From the IMG/VR virus record IMGVR_UViG_3300030085_002648, positions 1-51,929 of that record: a DNA stretch of 51,929 nucleotides. The stretch is one strand, 5' to 3'. The stretch comes from a virus. The position numbers and the translations under genes were made by a program. The notes under the pieces are model-generated. The model did not search any database. It was not told the DNA's origin and worked only from the letters and a program-made list of their open reading frames with translations. Below, piece after piece: positions 33,186-50,029 of this stretch; the first letter of the stretch is position 1, and every line of letters begins with the position of its first letter.

Positions 33186-33959
33186 TTATACAAGCACACC
33201 AACAATTGAATATCTTACATCAGTACTATTAACACTATCATATGTAATTGAGTGCCATCTATTGCCCCTATACATAGAGCATGAATTATATTCTCCTGGA
33301 ATATAGTGATACCTTTGATAAAAATGATCGCCAGTATAATATTTCCACTCACTCCATCCACTATTTAAATCATATTTTTCAAGACCTCGTTTATATGTTG
33401 CAAATCCTTTTTCTTTATCTCTAACTAACTCAGAAACCGAATAATATTCTTTGCCACTTGGACTCATAAATTTAAAGAAAGAAGTTCCTGAATTTGGAAC
33501 ATCAGTCAAATAGATATTTGAAGCTATAGAAAAAGGATCAACATGAGGTAAATAATTTTTATTATATGCTTTCATTCCAGGATAGCAACAATTTGTATAA
33601 TATTCAAATTTTGCATCCTCTTGCCTATATTTAAATAAATTATGATTTCTTCCTATAGTATAAAGATTTTGTCCCATTATGGGAAAGTATGTTTTATCTA
33701 TCGGTTGCTGAAACCCAGGAGCTTTACTTGATATGTGAGTATTATTATCTTGTTCAATAGAAATATTTCTATCTTCACAAGGAAATTTAGAAATAAACTC
33801 TCTAAAATCATCTGGTCTTAATAAAACATCTCTAATAGTAATATATTTTGTTCCTTCTGCTTCTCCATACTCAATATCCATTGCTGGATTAAATTCGCAT
33901 ATAGCATCTAATTGTGACGCTGTGTAACGGTGAAATACATCTAAAGAAATTTTACTCAT
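33186..33959 (-). CDS. DUF6445-like putative 2OG-Fe(II) oxygenase
   Basis: A 257-residue protein with the layout of the DUF6445 / prolyl-hydroxylase-like group. It has an N-terminal DDFREFISKFPCED segment, a KAPGFQQPI motif, then PHVDPF (H139, D141) before an SNIYLTDVPNSGTSFFKF core, GNRWHSITYD (H236), and VRYSIVGVLV (R249). H139, D141 and H236 fit an iron triad, and R249 fits the 2-oxoglutarate anchor. Such enzymes couple oxidative decarboxylation of 2-oxoglutarate to hydroxylation; the substrate is unknown. It is the third gene of a minus-strand operon, five bases after its paralogue. The operon ends at a strong terminator. Catalytic activity is inferred from motifs only. Confidence 0.68.
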   Translation of the reverse strand: MSKISLDVFHRYTASQLDAICEFNPAMDIEYGEAEGTKYITIRDVLLRPDDFREFISKFPCEDRNISIEQDNNTHISSKAPGFQQPIDKTYFPIMGQNLYTIGRNHNLFKYRQEDAKFEYYTNCCYPGMKAYNKNYLPHVDPFSIASNIYLTDVPNSGTSFFKFMSPSGKEYYSVSELVRDKEKGFATYKRGLEKYDLNSGWSEWKYYTGDHFYQRYHYIPGEYNSCSMYRGNRWHSITYDSVNSTDVRYSIVGVLV

Positions 33960-33964
33960 TATTG

Positions 33965-34780
33965 TTATTTTCCTGTATTTTTAGGTTCATTGAAGGAGAA
34001 TATTAGTTGATATGTTTCTTCATTTCCTTTATATGTTTGGTTAATCCAATTACCGCCCCGAGTAATAACTAATCTATTCTTTTTTGCAGGAATAAATCTC
34101 GTCTCATCAAAGAAACTATTTGATTCAAATGGAGTAAATTCAACCAATTCTTTAGTAATACCATTTTTGATGTTCAAGAAATCACCCATCTCTGAGAGTA
34201 ATTTCCTATCTGTTTCTAAAGTAATATCATCAAGGCAACTATATCTTTTGTTATTATAAACAAAATCATACAGACTTACACCATGTTTATTATCTTCAGT
34301 TGAATCATCAAAAAATATAGTAGCCCAATATTCACCCATTGCTGGTGATGGATTATTGGCATTCTTGTTAATAACCATATTCGGATGAAATACGGATCCA
34401 TGAGCCATTGACATTGATGTCAGTTGAGAAGCAAACATGGGATTCATTAAATTCTCATTTGCTCTTTGGGGCAAGAACTCACAATCAATTAGGAATTTAT
34501 AAATTTCAAAAATAACTTTTTCAAAAAGTAGAACGGGCAATGGTTGAGAAAAACCAGGCAATTTTGGCTGATCCCATTCTTTTGCACCAGTAGCAAATAG
34601 TTTTTGATATAGGTCTTCTCCCATATCAACAGGATACTTTAAAAATTGATTTACACTTTCATCAACATTCTCAAAAAAATTATCTACAATAATATATTCG
34701 TTAAAATCTTGAATTTCGCAGTCAGGATTAATTTTTTGAGATTGGACAAAATCAAAAACTCCAAGTTTATCAGTATACAT
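33965..34780 (-). CDS. degenerate paralogue of the DUF6445-like oxygenase
   Basis: A 271-residue protein starting at the ATG (34780-34778) that shares one base with the upstream TGA; an AAGGAG site precedes it. An in-frame TTG at 34783 is unlikely. It parallels the downstream gene: VDNFFENVDESVNQFLKYP near the start, KLPGFSQPLP against KAPGFQQPI, YWATIFFDD then GVSLYDF against NIYLTDV..GTSFFKF, and a final NRLVITRGGNW..LIFSFN. The metal site looks lost: FHPN replaces HVD, GGNWINQTY replaces RWHSITYD, and the final Arg is absent. It may be a non-catalytic partner of the downstream enzyme, or bind something else. The alignment is by eye. Confidence 0.65.
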   Translation of the reverse strand: MYTDKLGVFDFVQSQKINPDCEIQDFNEYIIVDNFFENVDESVNQFLKYPVDMGEDLYQKLFATGAKEWDQPKLPGFSQPLPVLLFEKVIFEIYKFLIDCEFLPQRANENLMNPMFASQLTSMSMAHGSVFHPNMVINKNANNPSPAMGEYWATIFFDDSTEDNKHGVSLYDFVYNNKRYSCLDDITLETDRKLLSEMGDFLNIKNGITKELVEFTPFESNSFFDETRFIPAKKNRLVITRGGNWINQTYKGNEETYQLIFSFNEPKNTGK

Positions 34781-35229
34781 CAATTGTCATCTCCTTGATT
34801 AACAACGGTATTAAATGTGTCAGATGCAGCAAGATCTTGCATTTCTTTAGACATCAGAGTAACGTTTGTCTGACTCTTATCACATTCTACCGAAACAGTA
34901 TTATCTTCTTGCCATTGCTGGATCAATGAAACATATGTTTCACAAAGAATTGGTGCTGGTTCATAGATTACTGTAATAAATTCCGATGGAAAATTAAATT
35001 CATAACGCTTTGCTAATGGTCCCCAACGTTTGAATTCTAAACTTGATTTATTTTCTGGATTCTCTACTACTTCTTCGTCCAAAGCAACTACGGTTTCATA
35101 CTTATGATCAATAATAAAAGGATTTGATACAAAGTAACCTACTGATTCATTTTTTTCTGGATCTAAAGCTTCCTTAATATCTGCAATTACTGTTTCTCCT
35201 GACCTGAGGAGACAAATTTGGATGCTCAT
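34780..35229 (-). CDS. hypothetical protein with possible Sm-like N-terminal barrel
   Basis: A 149-residue protein, first in the minus-strand operon. The N-terminal half has the strand order ICLLRSGETVIADIKEA, VGYFVSNPFII, then RYEFNFPSEFITVIYEPAP. This looks like the small beta-barrel (Sm-like) proteins common in marine phages. The C-terminal 40 residues are polar and acidic. A host-type promoter (35253-35281) lies just upstream. In other systems Sm-like proteins bind RNA, but RNA-binding residues are not identifiable here. The function is unknown; the family assignment is tentative. Confidence 0.6.
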   Translation of the reverse strand: MSIQICLLRSGETVIADIKEALDPEKNESVGYFVSNPFIIDHKYETVVALDEEVVENPENKSSLEFKRWGPLAKRYEFNFPSEFITVIYEPAPILCETYVSLIQQWQEDNTVSVECDKSQTNVTLMSKEMQDLAASDTFNTVVNQGDDN

Positions 35230-39427: not shown

Positions 39428-39688
39428 ATGATTATTAAACCACTTTCTTCTGCAGAAGATATTCAGGCAGCTGCATTAGCTGATGCTACTGCTTTGGCAG
39501 GAACACTTCTTTGGGTAGTAAATACAAACAACGCTGCTGCCAAAGTTACTGTTGCTAATGCTTCAGCAGTCACAGTTTACATTCCTGCTGGTGAAGGGAT
39601 GGCAATTAGAAAGGATCCAGGTGCTGTTGTAGATGCTAGTACTGCCAGTGGTTCTGTGTGGGCATCAGCAATTGCATACCAAAATTGA
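39428..39688 (+). CDS. small Ala/Val-rich hypothetical protein
   Basis: An 86-residue protein of unknown function with a beta-rich centre (TLLWVVNTNNAAAKVTVANA, then VTVYIPAGEGMAIRKDPG). The pattern of an N-terminal polar helix and a small beta sandwich is like head-decoration or tail-associated proteins of marine phages, but no family is recognised. It has its own late-type motif upstream and sits between the two terminase subunit genes. Confidence 0.68.
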   Translation: MIIKPLSSAEDIQAAALADATALAGTLLWVVNTNNAAAKVTVANASAVTVYIPAGEGMAIRKDPGAVVDASTASGSVWASAIAYQN

Positions 39689-39695
39689 ATAAATA
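39688..39695 (+). promoter_or_regulatory. late promoter-like motif
   Basis: AATAAATA (one mismatch), 25 bases before the ATG of the DUF6321-like gene and directly after the preceding stop. Confidence 0.45.
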
Positions 39696-39719: not shown

Positions 39720-40148
39720 ATGAAGTCATTTAAAGAATTTAGAGAGCTATCGGAAGCGAAGCGTGGACTTTATGCCAACATCCATGCCAAAAGAAAGCGT
39801 GGAGAATCCCCTGCTAAACCAGGAGATAAGGATTATCCTGCAAAGGATGCCTTTAAGAAAGCGGCGCGGACTGCTAAAGAAGAACTTGAACTTACACAAG
39901 AAGGAGCAGCCTGGACAAAAAAGTCTGGTAAGTCCGCCAGCGGCGGACTTAATGCCAAGGGAAGAAGATCTTACGAGAGAGAAAATCCTGGCAGCGACCT
40001 TAAAGCTCCAAGCAAGAAAGTTGGAAATCCCCGTCGCGCATCATTCTGCGCTAGAATGAAGGGTATGAAGAAAAAGTTAACCTCTAAGAAAACTGCTAGA
40101 GACCCTGATTCTAGAATCAATAAATCACTGAGAGCCTGGAACTGTTGA
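39720..40148 (+). CDS. basic DUF6321-like protein with capsid-targeting-like N-terminus
   Basis: A 142-residue, strongly basic protein. The GLNAKGRRSYERENPG segment, the KVGNPRRASFCARMKGMKK segment and the C-terminal RINKSLRAWNC are the DUF6321 pattern. An upstream GLYANIHAKRKRG / KPGDKDYPAKDAF segment is a second common element of such phage proteins. The first 13 residues (MKSFKEFRELSEA) resemble the capsid targeting sequence of T4 internal proteins (MKTYQEF..). They end in LSE-A, a match to the (L/I)xE-(A/G) site of the gp21 prohead protease. A role as a DNA-associated protein packaged inside the head is inferred. The gene lies directly before gp17. Confidence 0.78.
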   Translation: MKSFKEFRELSEAKRGLYANIHAKRKRGESPAKPGDKDYPAKDAFKKAARTAKEELELTQEGAAWTKKSGKSASGGLNAKGRRSYERENPGSDLKAPSKKVGNPRRASFCARMKGMKKKLTSKKTARDPDSRINKSLRAWNC

Positions 40149-46571: not shown

Positions 46572-46841
46572 ATGACTGTTACTAAAGAATTGATTGACAA
46601 AATTGTTAACGGAGAGAACTCTGTTGCATCTGATGAGGTGATTGATCTTCTGTATGCGAAAGCATCTGAAGCATTAGATTCTTATAAGAAAGAATATGCT
46701 GGTCAACTCATGAATCCAACCGAAGGAGAACCTGAGGTTGGTGAGGGAGATCCCAACATTGATGCTCCGCAACCAGAAGGATCCGCAGAACAGGAGATTG
46801 AAGAACCCACCACCGAACCCGAACCCGAAGAAGAACAATGA
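46572..46841 (+). CDS. gp67: gp67-like prohead core protein
   Basis: An 89-residue protein in the gp67 position (between gp20 and gp21). It has a short helical N-terminal part (LIDKIVNGENSVASDEVIDL) and a Pro/Glu-rich acidic tail, like the acidic tail of T4 gp67 (80 residues). gp67 is a scaffolding-core component needed for correct head shape and is degraded by gp21. The stop overlaps the gp21 start (ATGA). The assignment rests on position, size and composition, since direct similarity to T4 gp67 is weak. Confidence 0.75.
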   Translation: MTVTKELIDKIVNGENSVASDEVIDLLYAKASEALDSYKKEYAGQLMNPTEGEPEVGEGDPNIDAPQPEGSAEQEIEEPTTEPEPEEEQ

Positions 46842-47482
46842 AACTTATCGTAGAGCACATTGAAGATATTGAACTTCTCACTGAAGAGAAGGATGGAAAA
46901 GAGTATACATATATTCAGGGAGTATTTTTACAGGGCGATATCAAAAATCGCAATGGAAGAGTATATCCGATGCCTGTTCTTCAGCGCGAAGTAACTAACT
47001 ACAACGAAAATTTCGTTCAAAAGTCCCGTGCTCTAGGTGAACTCGGTCATCCTGATGGTCCTACCATCAACCTTGATCGTGTTTCACATAAGATTGTAGA
47101 ACTTTATCAAGATGGTTCTAACTATGTTGGTAAGGCAAAACTTCTTGAAACCCCTATGGGTCAAATTGCAAAGAACCTTCTCCGTGAAGGTGTGCAACTT
47201 GGAGTTTCTTCTAGAGGTGTAGGTAGTCTTGAGTCTAAGGGTGGTTCAAATTATGTCCGCGATGACTTTATGCTCACAACTGCTGCTGATATTGTTGCTG
47301 ATCCTTCTGCCCCTGATGCATTCGTCAACGGAATCATGGAAGGAAAAGAATGGGTCTGGAACAACGGAGCATTTAAAGAAGCAGAACTCCAGCAAGTAAA
47401 AGAAGATTTAGAGAGAGTATCACGCGGAGCACTTGAGGGTAAAATCCTTGAGAGCTTTGAGAAACTGCTCTCTAACTTATAA
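46838..47482 (+). CDS. gp21: gp21 prohead core protease
   Basis: A 214-residue serine protease matching T4 gp21 (212). GVFLQGDIKNRNGRVYP is the family N-terminal motif. GELGHPDG supplies the catalytic His (H71). GVSSRGVGS supplies the catalytic Ser (S124 or S125). Asp in TTAADIVADPSAPDA is the probable third residue (D151 or D155). It cleaves core proteins and gp23 after (L/I)xE before packaging. The start overlaps the end of gp67 by ATGA, so the two are translated together. Confidence 0.94.
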   Translation: MKLIVEHIEDIELLTEEKDGKEYTYIQGVFLQGDIKNRNGRVYPMPVLQREVTNYNENFVQKSRALGELGHPDGPTINLDRVSHKIVELYQDGSNYVGKAKLLETPMGQIAKNLLREGVQLGVSSRGVGSLESKGGSNYVRDDFMLTTAADIVADPSAPDAFVNGIMEGKEWVWNNGAFKEAELQQVKEDLERVSRGALEGKILESFEKLLSNL

Positions 47483-47533: not shown

Positions 47534-48619
47534 ATGGCTAATTCGTTAAACGAGAAATTTGAAGATTTCGTATCAGAGAACGTTGATGCGGAAACTGTTA
47601 CAGAAATGAAAAATGCTGTAAACGCTGGTGCTGCACCAGCTGAGGGATCACACCTTCCTGCTGCTCAAGGTGCTGATGTTGCTGTTGCCAATGTTGAACC
47701 AATGGCTGCAGGATCATCCGCTGAGTACTCAGGTAAGTTTGAGAACTCTGGTGCTAAGGCTGCTGCTCCAGTTAAAAAGTCTAAGACTGCAGTTAACTCG
47801 GGCGAAGGCAAGCAAGATCCTATGCCTAAATTAGAAGGCGGTAAGGATATGGCTGGCAAGAAGGTCAGTCGTGGTGGCGGGGACGCAATGCCTAAACTGG
47901 CTAAGGAAGAGATTGATGTTACTGATGACATCAATGCACTCGTCAATGGCGAGGATCTTTCTGAAGAATTCAAAGAAAAAGCAACAACAATTTTCAGCGC
48001 CGCTGTTTCTTCTAAGATTGATGAAGAAACCAAGCGTCTGGAAGAAAGCTATGCTGCTCAGTTGAATGAGCAAATTGACGTGATCAAGGAGGAAATGTCA
48101 TCTAAGGTTGACTCCTTCTTGAACTATATTGTAGAACAATGGATTAGTGATAACAAGCTCGCAATCAACGAAGGTATTCGCACCGAGATTGCTGAGTCCT
48201 TTATGTCTGCTCTTAAGGGAGTGTTCACCGAACACTACATGGATATTCCAGAAGAGAAGTACGATATGGTTGAGGGGATGAGCGAAAAGTTAGATGAAAT
48301 GGAGACAAAACTCAACGAACAAATTGACAAAAATGTTGAATTAAATTCTGCTCTGGGAGAATTCGTCAAAGAATCTATCGTTGCCGAAGTATCTCAGGGT
48401 CTCGCTGATACTCAGAAAGAAAAACTTTCCTCCCTTGCTGAGGGTGTAGAGTTTACTTCCGAAGAGTCATTCAAAGAGAAGATTGAAACCATTAAGGAAA
48501 ACTATTTCCCTAAGACTTCAATCAATGAGAGCGTAGAAGAATCTGAGCCTGTTGCCGAGAAGGTAATCCCTGCTGGCATGGAGCAATATGTTTCCGCAAT
48601 CTCACGCTACAATAAGTGA
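47534..48619 (+). CDS. gp22: gp22 prohead scaffold protein
   Basis: A 361-residue scaffold. The N-terminal third is Ala/Gly/Pro-rich and probably disordered. Residues about 140-330 are a long series of Glu/Lys-rich helices (FKEKATTIFSAAVSSKIDEE, LNEQIDVIKEEMSSKVDSFL), typical of gp22. LAE-G and INE-G sequences are candidate gp21 cleavage sites, consistent with its degradation during maturation. T4 gp22 has 269 residues; the extra length is mostly the N-terminal low-complexity part. It lies between gp21 and gp23, as in T4. Confidence 0.9.
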   Translation: MANSLNEKFEDFVSENVDAETVTEMKNAVNAGAAPAEGSHLPAAQGADVAVANVEPMAAGSSAEYSGKFENSGAKAAAPVKKSKTAVNSGEGKQDPMPKLEGGKDMAGKKVSRGGGDAMPKLAKEEIDVTDDINALVNGEDLSEEFKEKATTIFSAAVSSKIDEETKRLEESYAAQLNEQIDVIKEEMSSKVDSFLNYIVEQWISDNKLAINEGIRTEIAESFMSALKGVFTEHYMDIPEEKYDMVEGMSEKLDEMETKLNEQIDKNVELNSALGEFVKESIVAEVSQGLADTQKEKLSSLAEGVEFTSEESFKEKIETIKENYFPKTSINESVEESEPVAEKVIPAGMEQYVSAISRYNK

Positions 48620-48676: not shown

Positions 48677-50029
48677 ATGTTCAATACCGAACAACTCCAG
48701 GAGAAGTGGGCACCTGTTCTGTCTCACGGCGATCTCCCCGAGATCAAAGATAGTTACAAGAAGGCTGTCACCACTCAACTTCTGGAAAACCAAGAGAAAT
48801 TCCTCCGCGAGGAGAGAATGCTGACCGAAGCGCCTACTAACGCTGGTCCTATCAATACACCTACCACAGGTAGTGGAAACGTAGCAGGTTTTGACCCCGT
48901 ACTGATCTCACTGATCCGTCGCTCAATGCCTAACCTGATCGCCTATGACATCTGCGGCGTTCAACCAATGAACGGTCCTACTGGACTGATCTTCGCAATG
49001 CGCTCCCGCGTTGAGTCCCAGACTGGCGACGAGACCTTCTACAACGAAGTCAACTCTGCTTTCTCTGGTACTGCTTACGACAGTGGCAACTCTGCTGGTG
49101 GTACTGCTCCTACTGGATCCAACCCTGCCGTCCTCAACGACAGCGGCACCTATGGATCTGCTGGCGGCATGGATACATCCACCGCTGAAGCTCTGGGTGA
49201 AGCCGCTGCTAGCGTATTCCCAGAAATGGCATTCAGCATCGAAAAGATTGCTGTCACCGCTAAGAGCCGTGCTCTGAAAGCTGAGTACAGCATTGAACTC
49301 GCACAAGACCTGAAGGCAATTCATGGTCTGGATGCTGAAACTGAACTCGCCAACATCCTCTCTGCTGAGATCCTCACCGAAATCAACAGAGAAGTCGTTC
49401 GTACCGTATTCCGCTCCGCTAAGCCTGGTGCTCAGCAGAACGTTGCTACTCAAGGTACGTTTGACATGGACGTTGATTCCAACGGACGTTGGAGCGTTGA
49501 GAAGTTCAAGGGTCTCCTCTTCCAGATTGAGCGTGAAATGAACGCCATCGCAAAAGAGACTCGTAGAGGGAAGGGCAACATGCTCGTCTGCTCTTCAGAC
49601 GTTGCTTCTGCCCTGTCAATGGCTGGCGTCCTTGACTACAACCCTGCTCTTAACACAGGTCTGAACGTTGATGACACTGGTAGCACCTTCGTTGGTACGC
49701 TGAACGGTCGCATCCGCGTTTACATTGATCCTTATTCGGCACTGCCTTCTGAGGGTAACAACGCTGCTCAGTTCTTCATCGCTGGTTATAAGGGTACTTC
49801 CCCTTATGATGCTGGTCTGTTCTATTGCCCATATGTACCTCTGCAGATGGTACGCGCAATCGGACCTGACACCTTCCAGCCCAAGATCGGATTTAAGACC
49901 CGCTACGGCATGGTTCTTAATCCATTCGCTAAGGGTGCTACTGCTCTTACCAACTCCGATCCTACCAATGCTGGTAACGTCAACACCAACGTCTACTACA
50001 GACGTGTCCGTGTTACCAACCTTATGTGA
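48677..50029 (+). CDS. gp23: gp23 major capsid protein
   Basis: A 450-residue HK97-fold capsid precursor. Diagnostic gp23 segments are FDPVLISLIRRSMPNLIAYD, ICGVQPMNGPTGLIFAMRSR, FSIEKIAVTAKSRALKAEYS, DLKAIHGLDAETELANILS and the C-terminal QPKIGFKTRYGMVLNPFAKG. The N-terminal 51 residues are a helical scaffold-binding piece ending in LTE-A, a match to the gp21 cleavage site (after E51). It is GC-richer than its neighbours, with codons typical of a very highly expressed gene. It is followed by a strong terminator. T4 gp23 is longer (521). Confidence 0.97.
   Translation: MFNTEQLQEKWAPVLSHGDLPEIKDSYKKAVTTQLLENQEKFLREERMLTEAPTNAGPINTPTTGSGNVAGFDPVLISLIRRSMPNLIAYDICGVQPMNGPTGLIFAMRSRVESQTGDETFYNEVNSAFSGTAYDSGNSAGGTAPTGSNPAVLNDSGTYGSAGGMDTSTAEALGEAAASVFPEMAFSIEKIAVTAKSRALKAEYSIELAQDLKAIHGLDAETELANILSAEILTEINREVVRTVFRSAKPGAQQNVATQGTFDMDVDSNGRWSVEKFKGLLFQIEREMNAIAKETRRGKGNMLVCSSDVASALSMAGVLDYNPALNTGLNVDDTGSTFVGTLNGRIRVYIDPYSALPSEGNNAAQFFIAGYKGTSPYDAGLFYCPYVPLQMVRAIGPDTFQPKIGFKTRYGMVLNPFAKGATALTNSDPTNAGNVNTNVYYRRVRVTNLM

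Follow-up and report, generated by a model that had tools for sequence, protein, structure and literature searches.

The gene at positions 39720-40148 of the window, which is the entire 51.9-kb virus record, likely encodes the precursor of a T4-type internal-head cargo protein that would be directed to the core of the prohead and processed there by the prohead protease gp21, probably into two basic peptides. On the best-supported reading, the new elements are the assignment of the DUF6321 family and a modular, protease-separated design, which is shared with protease-less phages in the form of separate genes. This would give a concrete, testable first role to an abundant uncharacterised family, extend the T4 head-targeting code to ocean cyanophages and offer a possible account of how enzymes such as cytidylyltransferase enter cyanophage virions. 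This analysis established the signal and its conservation, the boundaries of the modules and the link to gp21; the virion detection of related DUF6321 proteins is taken from published mass spectrometry (MS).

The gene and its N-terminal signal

The features considered here are as follows.

39720..40148, plus strand: precursor gene (phrog_11180), DUF6321 protein of 142 aa (translation, profile match)
39720..39755, plus strand: capsid-targeting-like propeptide MKSFKEFRELSE, residues 1-12, predicted gp21 cut after E12 (conserved positions 4, 7, 10 and 12; T4 rule, PMC9026906)
39756..39902, plus strand: GLYANIH module and linker, residues 13-61, a separate gene in T7-like phages (module comparison)
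39894..39905, plus strand: inner joint TQE-G, residues 59-62 (P4 = Leu58), candidate site of a second gp21 cut with a non-strict motif (LEE-A in relatives; joint enrichment)
39903..40145, plus strand: DUF6321 module, residues 62-142, predicted helical domain (profile, model)
39689..39695, plus strand: ATAAATA, T4-type late-promoter motif, placed 31 bases before the 39720 start (placement)
46838..47482, plus strand: gp21 prohead protease, presumed cutter (PF03420, E 1.7e-33)
47534..48619, plus strand: gp22 scaffold/core protein, presumed docking partner (PF25623, phrog_237)
48677..50029, plus strand: major capsid protein gp23, which has a gp21-type site of its own, MLTE-A, after residue 51 (profile, motif scan)

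The window contains a T4-like head and tail cluster in which gp16, gp17, gp20, gp21, gp22 and gp23 are identified by profile search, both PF03420 and PF25623 thus being present in the same phage. The earlier note had placed the gene next to the terminase genes, which holds for gp17 (PF03237, from 40152), starting three bases beyond the stop, but not strictly for gp16 (PF11053, 38994-39410), which is separated from it by one small ORF (39428-39688; 86 aa, phrog_10026). In relatives, small uncharacterised proteins whose genes lie in this interval or close to gp21 (S-SZBM1_195 and S-SCSM1 ORF38/39) are MS-detected virion proteins. ATAAATA is the T4-type late motif. Of the 14 times that it occurs on the plus strand of the window, 13 precede a gene start by 15-60 bases, the genes including gp13, gp18, gp19, gp20, gp22 and gp23; its bare count in the window shows no excess over chance, and the placement alone is non-random. 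The run of plus-strand late genes is broken immediately ahead of gp13 by three minus-strand ORFs (33186-33959, 33965-34783 and 34780-35229).

The product begins MKSFKEFRELSEAKRG, and its reading frame, its first 13 residues and its basic charge are as first described (39 K+R and 16 D+E, net +23, pI 10.38, as computed from the translation). DUF6321 (PF19846) is matched at residues 70-140 (E 5e-23) with a score of 82 bits, above the curated cut-off of 28.5, and constitutes only the C-terminal part of the protein, residues 13-54 forming a second, separate module. A search of 50,697 phage records gave more than 500 with a match to the protein or its DUF6321 part.

The T4 signal reads MKTYQEFIAE-A. 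In T4, residues 4 and 7 chiefly govern targeting and residues 8 and 10 processing, gp21 cleaves after L/I-x-E, and propeptide lengths range from 10 to 19 residues (PMC9026906). F4, F7, L10 and E12 of the present protein occupy the key T4 roles with two residues extra. The predicted cut follows residue 12 and not residue 10 as in the T4 internal proteins; an identical length was not treated as defining, because T4 propeptides themselves span that range. As revealed by a pattern scan, MKSFKEFRELSE followed by A is the sole capsid-targeting-sequence (CTS)-like start in the six frames of the window, and LSE-A after residue 12 is the sole [LIVM]xE[AG] in the protein, in agreement with the proposed gp21 site. 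Comparison of 16 distinct N-termini, a check suggested in the earlier note, shows F or Y at position 4, F, L or I at position 7, L at position 10 and E at position 12 in all 16, with position 11 variable; the expected alanine at position 13 (P1') is found in only nine, the other seven carrying E, S or K.

In the whole genome of S-SCSM1 (228 kb), the CTS-start pattern retrieves two starts, that of the NMNAT (MKSFLQFLKEA) and that of a small ORF immediately after the DUF6321 gene, the products of the NMNAT and DUF6321 genes both being detected in virions. A contig in a Nonlabens assembly encodes a minimal CTS plus DUF6321 protein of 89 aa (MKNFAQYIEE-DWQKKSGKN...) upstream of a T4-like gp17. T4-exact spacing is restricted to this relative and the cytidylyltransferase.

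Modules, joints and the prohead protease

Module 1 comprises residues 13-54 (AKRGLYANIHAKRKRG...RTAK) and module 2 the DUF6321 residues 62-142. In the T7-like marine phages S-SBP1 (gp28, gp27), P-SCSP1d (15, 14) and Jormungand (gp20, gp21), the same two modules are adjacent separate genes beside capsid/scaffold genes, which, unlike the fused gene, have no propeptide and reside in genomes with no gp21. The podovirus module-1 protein starts MAK(x)GLYANIH and stops soon after TAK, which agrees with both ends of module 1; its start resembles the AKRGLYANIH predicted from the LSE-A cut, with the caveat that MAK is a common start. All 73 ORFs of the podovirus-like set that were examined have DUF6321 on its own, and 37 of them have a separate GLY gene at most 1.5 kb away, mostly at about 200 bases. 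Stand-alone forms from other assemblies begin MAKTPAWTRK..., near the predicted GAAWTKK end. An E preceding AAWT was rejected as an intrinsic property of the DUF6321 module, since members that stand alone begin MAKTPAW.. or MAKK.. and have no E there.

The form of the gene follows the protease: gp21 (PF03420) is encoded by all 11 T4-like cyanophages whose DUF6321 gene is fused or mosaic, vs none of the 8 records in which it is free-standing, four of those being recorded as complete genomes. Both gp21 and free-standing DUF6321 forms also occur in bacterial assemblies, where the admixture of phage contigs makes them difficult to interpret.

The DUF6321 module alone is predicted to be a compact helical domain (pLDDT 88.8) and carries an invariant SFCAR..G patch. 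The whole-protein model is poor (pLDDT 63), and the low confidence of the inter-module residues 42-61, the least certain part, is consistent with what a flexible linker would give. The module model has no match in a fold search of the PDB and retrieves essentially its own family from BFVD; a PDB sequence search with the protein gives no relative, and a literature search found no paper naming DUF6321. Two BFVD entries from uncultured phages (A0A6J5R4H4 and A0A6J5N5R9) present a DUF6321-like fold in an AAA-domain protein (E 2.2e-4) and, weakly, in a ferritin/DPS-domain protein (E 0.47).

At the inner joint, LEE-A is found in the relatives L005, L006, L009 and L013, while the present protein has LTQE-G instead of a strict LxE-A/G; with Thr at P3, a second cut is therefore less certain here. 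In 47 non-redundant proteins, 67 of 91 [LIVM]xE[AG] sites lie within the 9 residues before one of seven modules (6.9 expected, this joint zone making up 7.6% of residues), as do 33 of 40 [LI]xE[AG] sites (3.0 expected), the associated P values being optimistic because related sequences are not independent. Composition-preserving shuffling of the linkers gives far fewer sites than observed for five modules: DUF6321 (18/29 vs 2.2 shuffled), VRIPAKTG (7/8 vs 0.4), GLY (4/5 vs 0.1), DACY (5/12 vs 0.5) and CWKGY (5/23 vs 0.5). The remaining two of the seven, RDWF and YCxLC, are not significantly enriched by the same procedure. S-CREM2 gp160 (L351:38343-39236), an MS-detected protein (PMC10665884), has LSE-A, LEE-K and ISE-G before its three modules, one each. 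Its N-terminal stretch matches a PHROG annotated as major head protein.

DUF6321 proteins and targeting signals in cyanophage virions

Two DUF6321 proteins are known from virions, both encoded between terS and terL. S-SCSM1 ORF29 (517 aa, DUF6321 at 445-515) is an annotated virion protein of a phage whose virion proteins were determined by MS (PMC9602691), and S-CREM2 gp137 (490 aa, DUF6321 at 415-488) was detected in virions with 4 unique peptides (PMC10665884). Both are long mosaics without the short-form CTS and therefore support the family, not the form encoded at 39720-40148; CsCl-purified virions may also carry contaminants, according to the authors of the MS studies (PMC10665884, PMC9602691). 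Syn9 gp114 carries DUF6321 yet lacks a structural label in its record. S-SZBM1_190, MS-detected and from the same interval, was rejected as a DUF6321 protein, since no DUF6321 was found on checking. Most DUF6321 proteins of T4-like cyanophages are long mosaics lacking the N-terminal CTS, and the CTS was accordingly rejected as an inherent part of the family.

A T4-spaced signal, MKxFxxFLxEA, is present on the cytidylyltransferase of S-SM1, Syn9, S-SM2, S-SCSM1, S-P4, MA01 and S-CREM2. This enzyme has been detected in the virions of S-SM1, as T4-GC190 (PMC3037559), S-SCSM1, as cytidylyltransferase/NMNAT (PMC9602691), and S-CREM2 (PMC10665884), the identity of the S-SM1 T4-GC190 gene as cytidylyltransferase being established by a gene check. 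The T4-spaced signal being borne by a virion-detected protein, the code of T4 seems to operate in cyanophages. A cytidylyltransferase is also MS-detected in S-SZBM1 (PMC9146016).

Further CTS-like starts between the terminase genes are those of S-SZBM1_191 and _192, S-SCSM1 ORF30 and S-CREM2 gp136 (MS-detected), with loci at L350:2312-3126 (minus strand), L097:44215-44535 and L351:17302-18015. The interval between the terminase genes looks like a cargo locus.

The core idea of the earlier note, packaging of a DUF6321 protein through a T4-type signal processed by gp21, is supported by the N-termini, the MS of relatives and the distribution of gp21. It has to be amended in two respects: long mosaics without a CTS prevail among the DUF6321 proteins of T4-like cyanophages, and the present protein is a two-module precursor.

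Proposed processing, rival explanations and relation to known systems

We infer docking, both cuts, a place inside the head and any post-injection role along the following lines. The precursor would be expressed late, and residues 1-12, by analogy with T4, would dock the chain on the gp22 prohead core. Cleavage by gp21 after LSE12, which is considered probable, would free a chain beginning AKRGLYANIH, and it is somewhat more likely than not that gp21 also cuts the linker near E61-G62, to give two products, one of roughly 5.5 kDa and the other, with the DUF6321 module, of roughly 8.9 kDa. These basic peptides would stay with the packaged DNA, and the protein is very likely a virion component. 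Entry of the peptides into the host along with the genome is possible, its chances being about even.

One rival explanation is a variant of this scheme and not exclusive of it: gp21 would use the N-terminal site alone, the E-rich joints would be flexible linkers or recombination points, and one 130-residue chain would be kept in the head. This is possible, though it is given well under an even chance; the linkers are indeed rich in E and L, the second joint of the present protein lacks the strict motif and two of the seven module types show no significant enrichment, but the linker shuffles for the other five argue against it. It is unlikely that the protein is instead a prohead-core component like T4 gp67/gp68, which would be targeted, cut by gp21 and act in head assembly, most fragments then leaving the head. 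The targeting and cutting logic would be identical, and the modules do lie beside scaffold/capsid genes in T7-like phages; however, mature virions yield large DUF6321 mosaics, the free-standing forms of protease-less phages are strongly basic, which fits DNA binding over a removable core, and the content differs greatly among close phages.

A DNA-binding packaging accessory or late regulator acting in the cell, whose resemblance to a CTS is fortuitous, is very improbable. The position between the terminase genes and the very basic composition would suit it, as would the presence of DUF6321 on contigs from bacterial and archaeal assemblies, even if many such contigs could be phage. Family members are, however, detected in virions, F/Y4, L10 and E12 are invariant while position 11 is free, and the window has a single such start, together with the association with gp21.

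The proposed internal-head cargo precursor resembles T4 IPI, IPII, IPIII and Alt in having a short propeptide with aromatic or hydrophobic residues at positions 4 and 7 followed by LxE-A, and a mature part that is small and basic; the phage likewise encodes gp21, and the promoter is of the late type. It differs from the T4 internal proteins in a propeptide two residues longer and a sequence-unrelated mature part of two modules. The cyanophage cytidylyltransferase/NMNAT (T4-GC190), which is virion-detected in T4-like cyanophages, bears an N-terminal signal of the same kind (e.g. MKKFSAFLNEA), but is an enzyme with exact T4 spacing and an unrelated body. In the giant phages phiKZ and SPN3US, which have processed inner-body/ejection proteins, a gp21 homologue cleaves many head proteins behind a Glu residue, some of them at multiple sites (PMC9026906); their motif is S/A-x-E and their propeptides are long.

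It is an evenly balanced proposition that marine T4-like phages possess a modular cargo system, in which the precursors would be mosaics carrying a gp21 site ahead of every module (DUF6321, GLYANIH, DACYHKVK, CWKGY, VRIPAKTG and others) and would be cut into several peptides in the prohead, the modules occurring as separate head genes in protease-less phages. If gp21 does release the modules, the precursors packaged by marine phages would be multi-peptide ones, and virion MS data already in existence could show what reaches Prochlorococcus and Synechococcus. The mosaics of the T4-GC119 type (S-SM2_109, S-SCSM1 ORF29 and S-CREM2 gp137, two of the three being virion-detected) share with the present protein the C-terminal DUF6321 module and the terminase-gene interval, and have gp21-type sites at their joints; unlike it, they are hundreds of residues long, have other modules replacing GLYANIH and, among those examined, no short N-terminal CTS. 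S-SM2_109 (L082:31802-33928) also contains a DUF192 domain (PF02643, aa 339-441).
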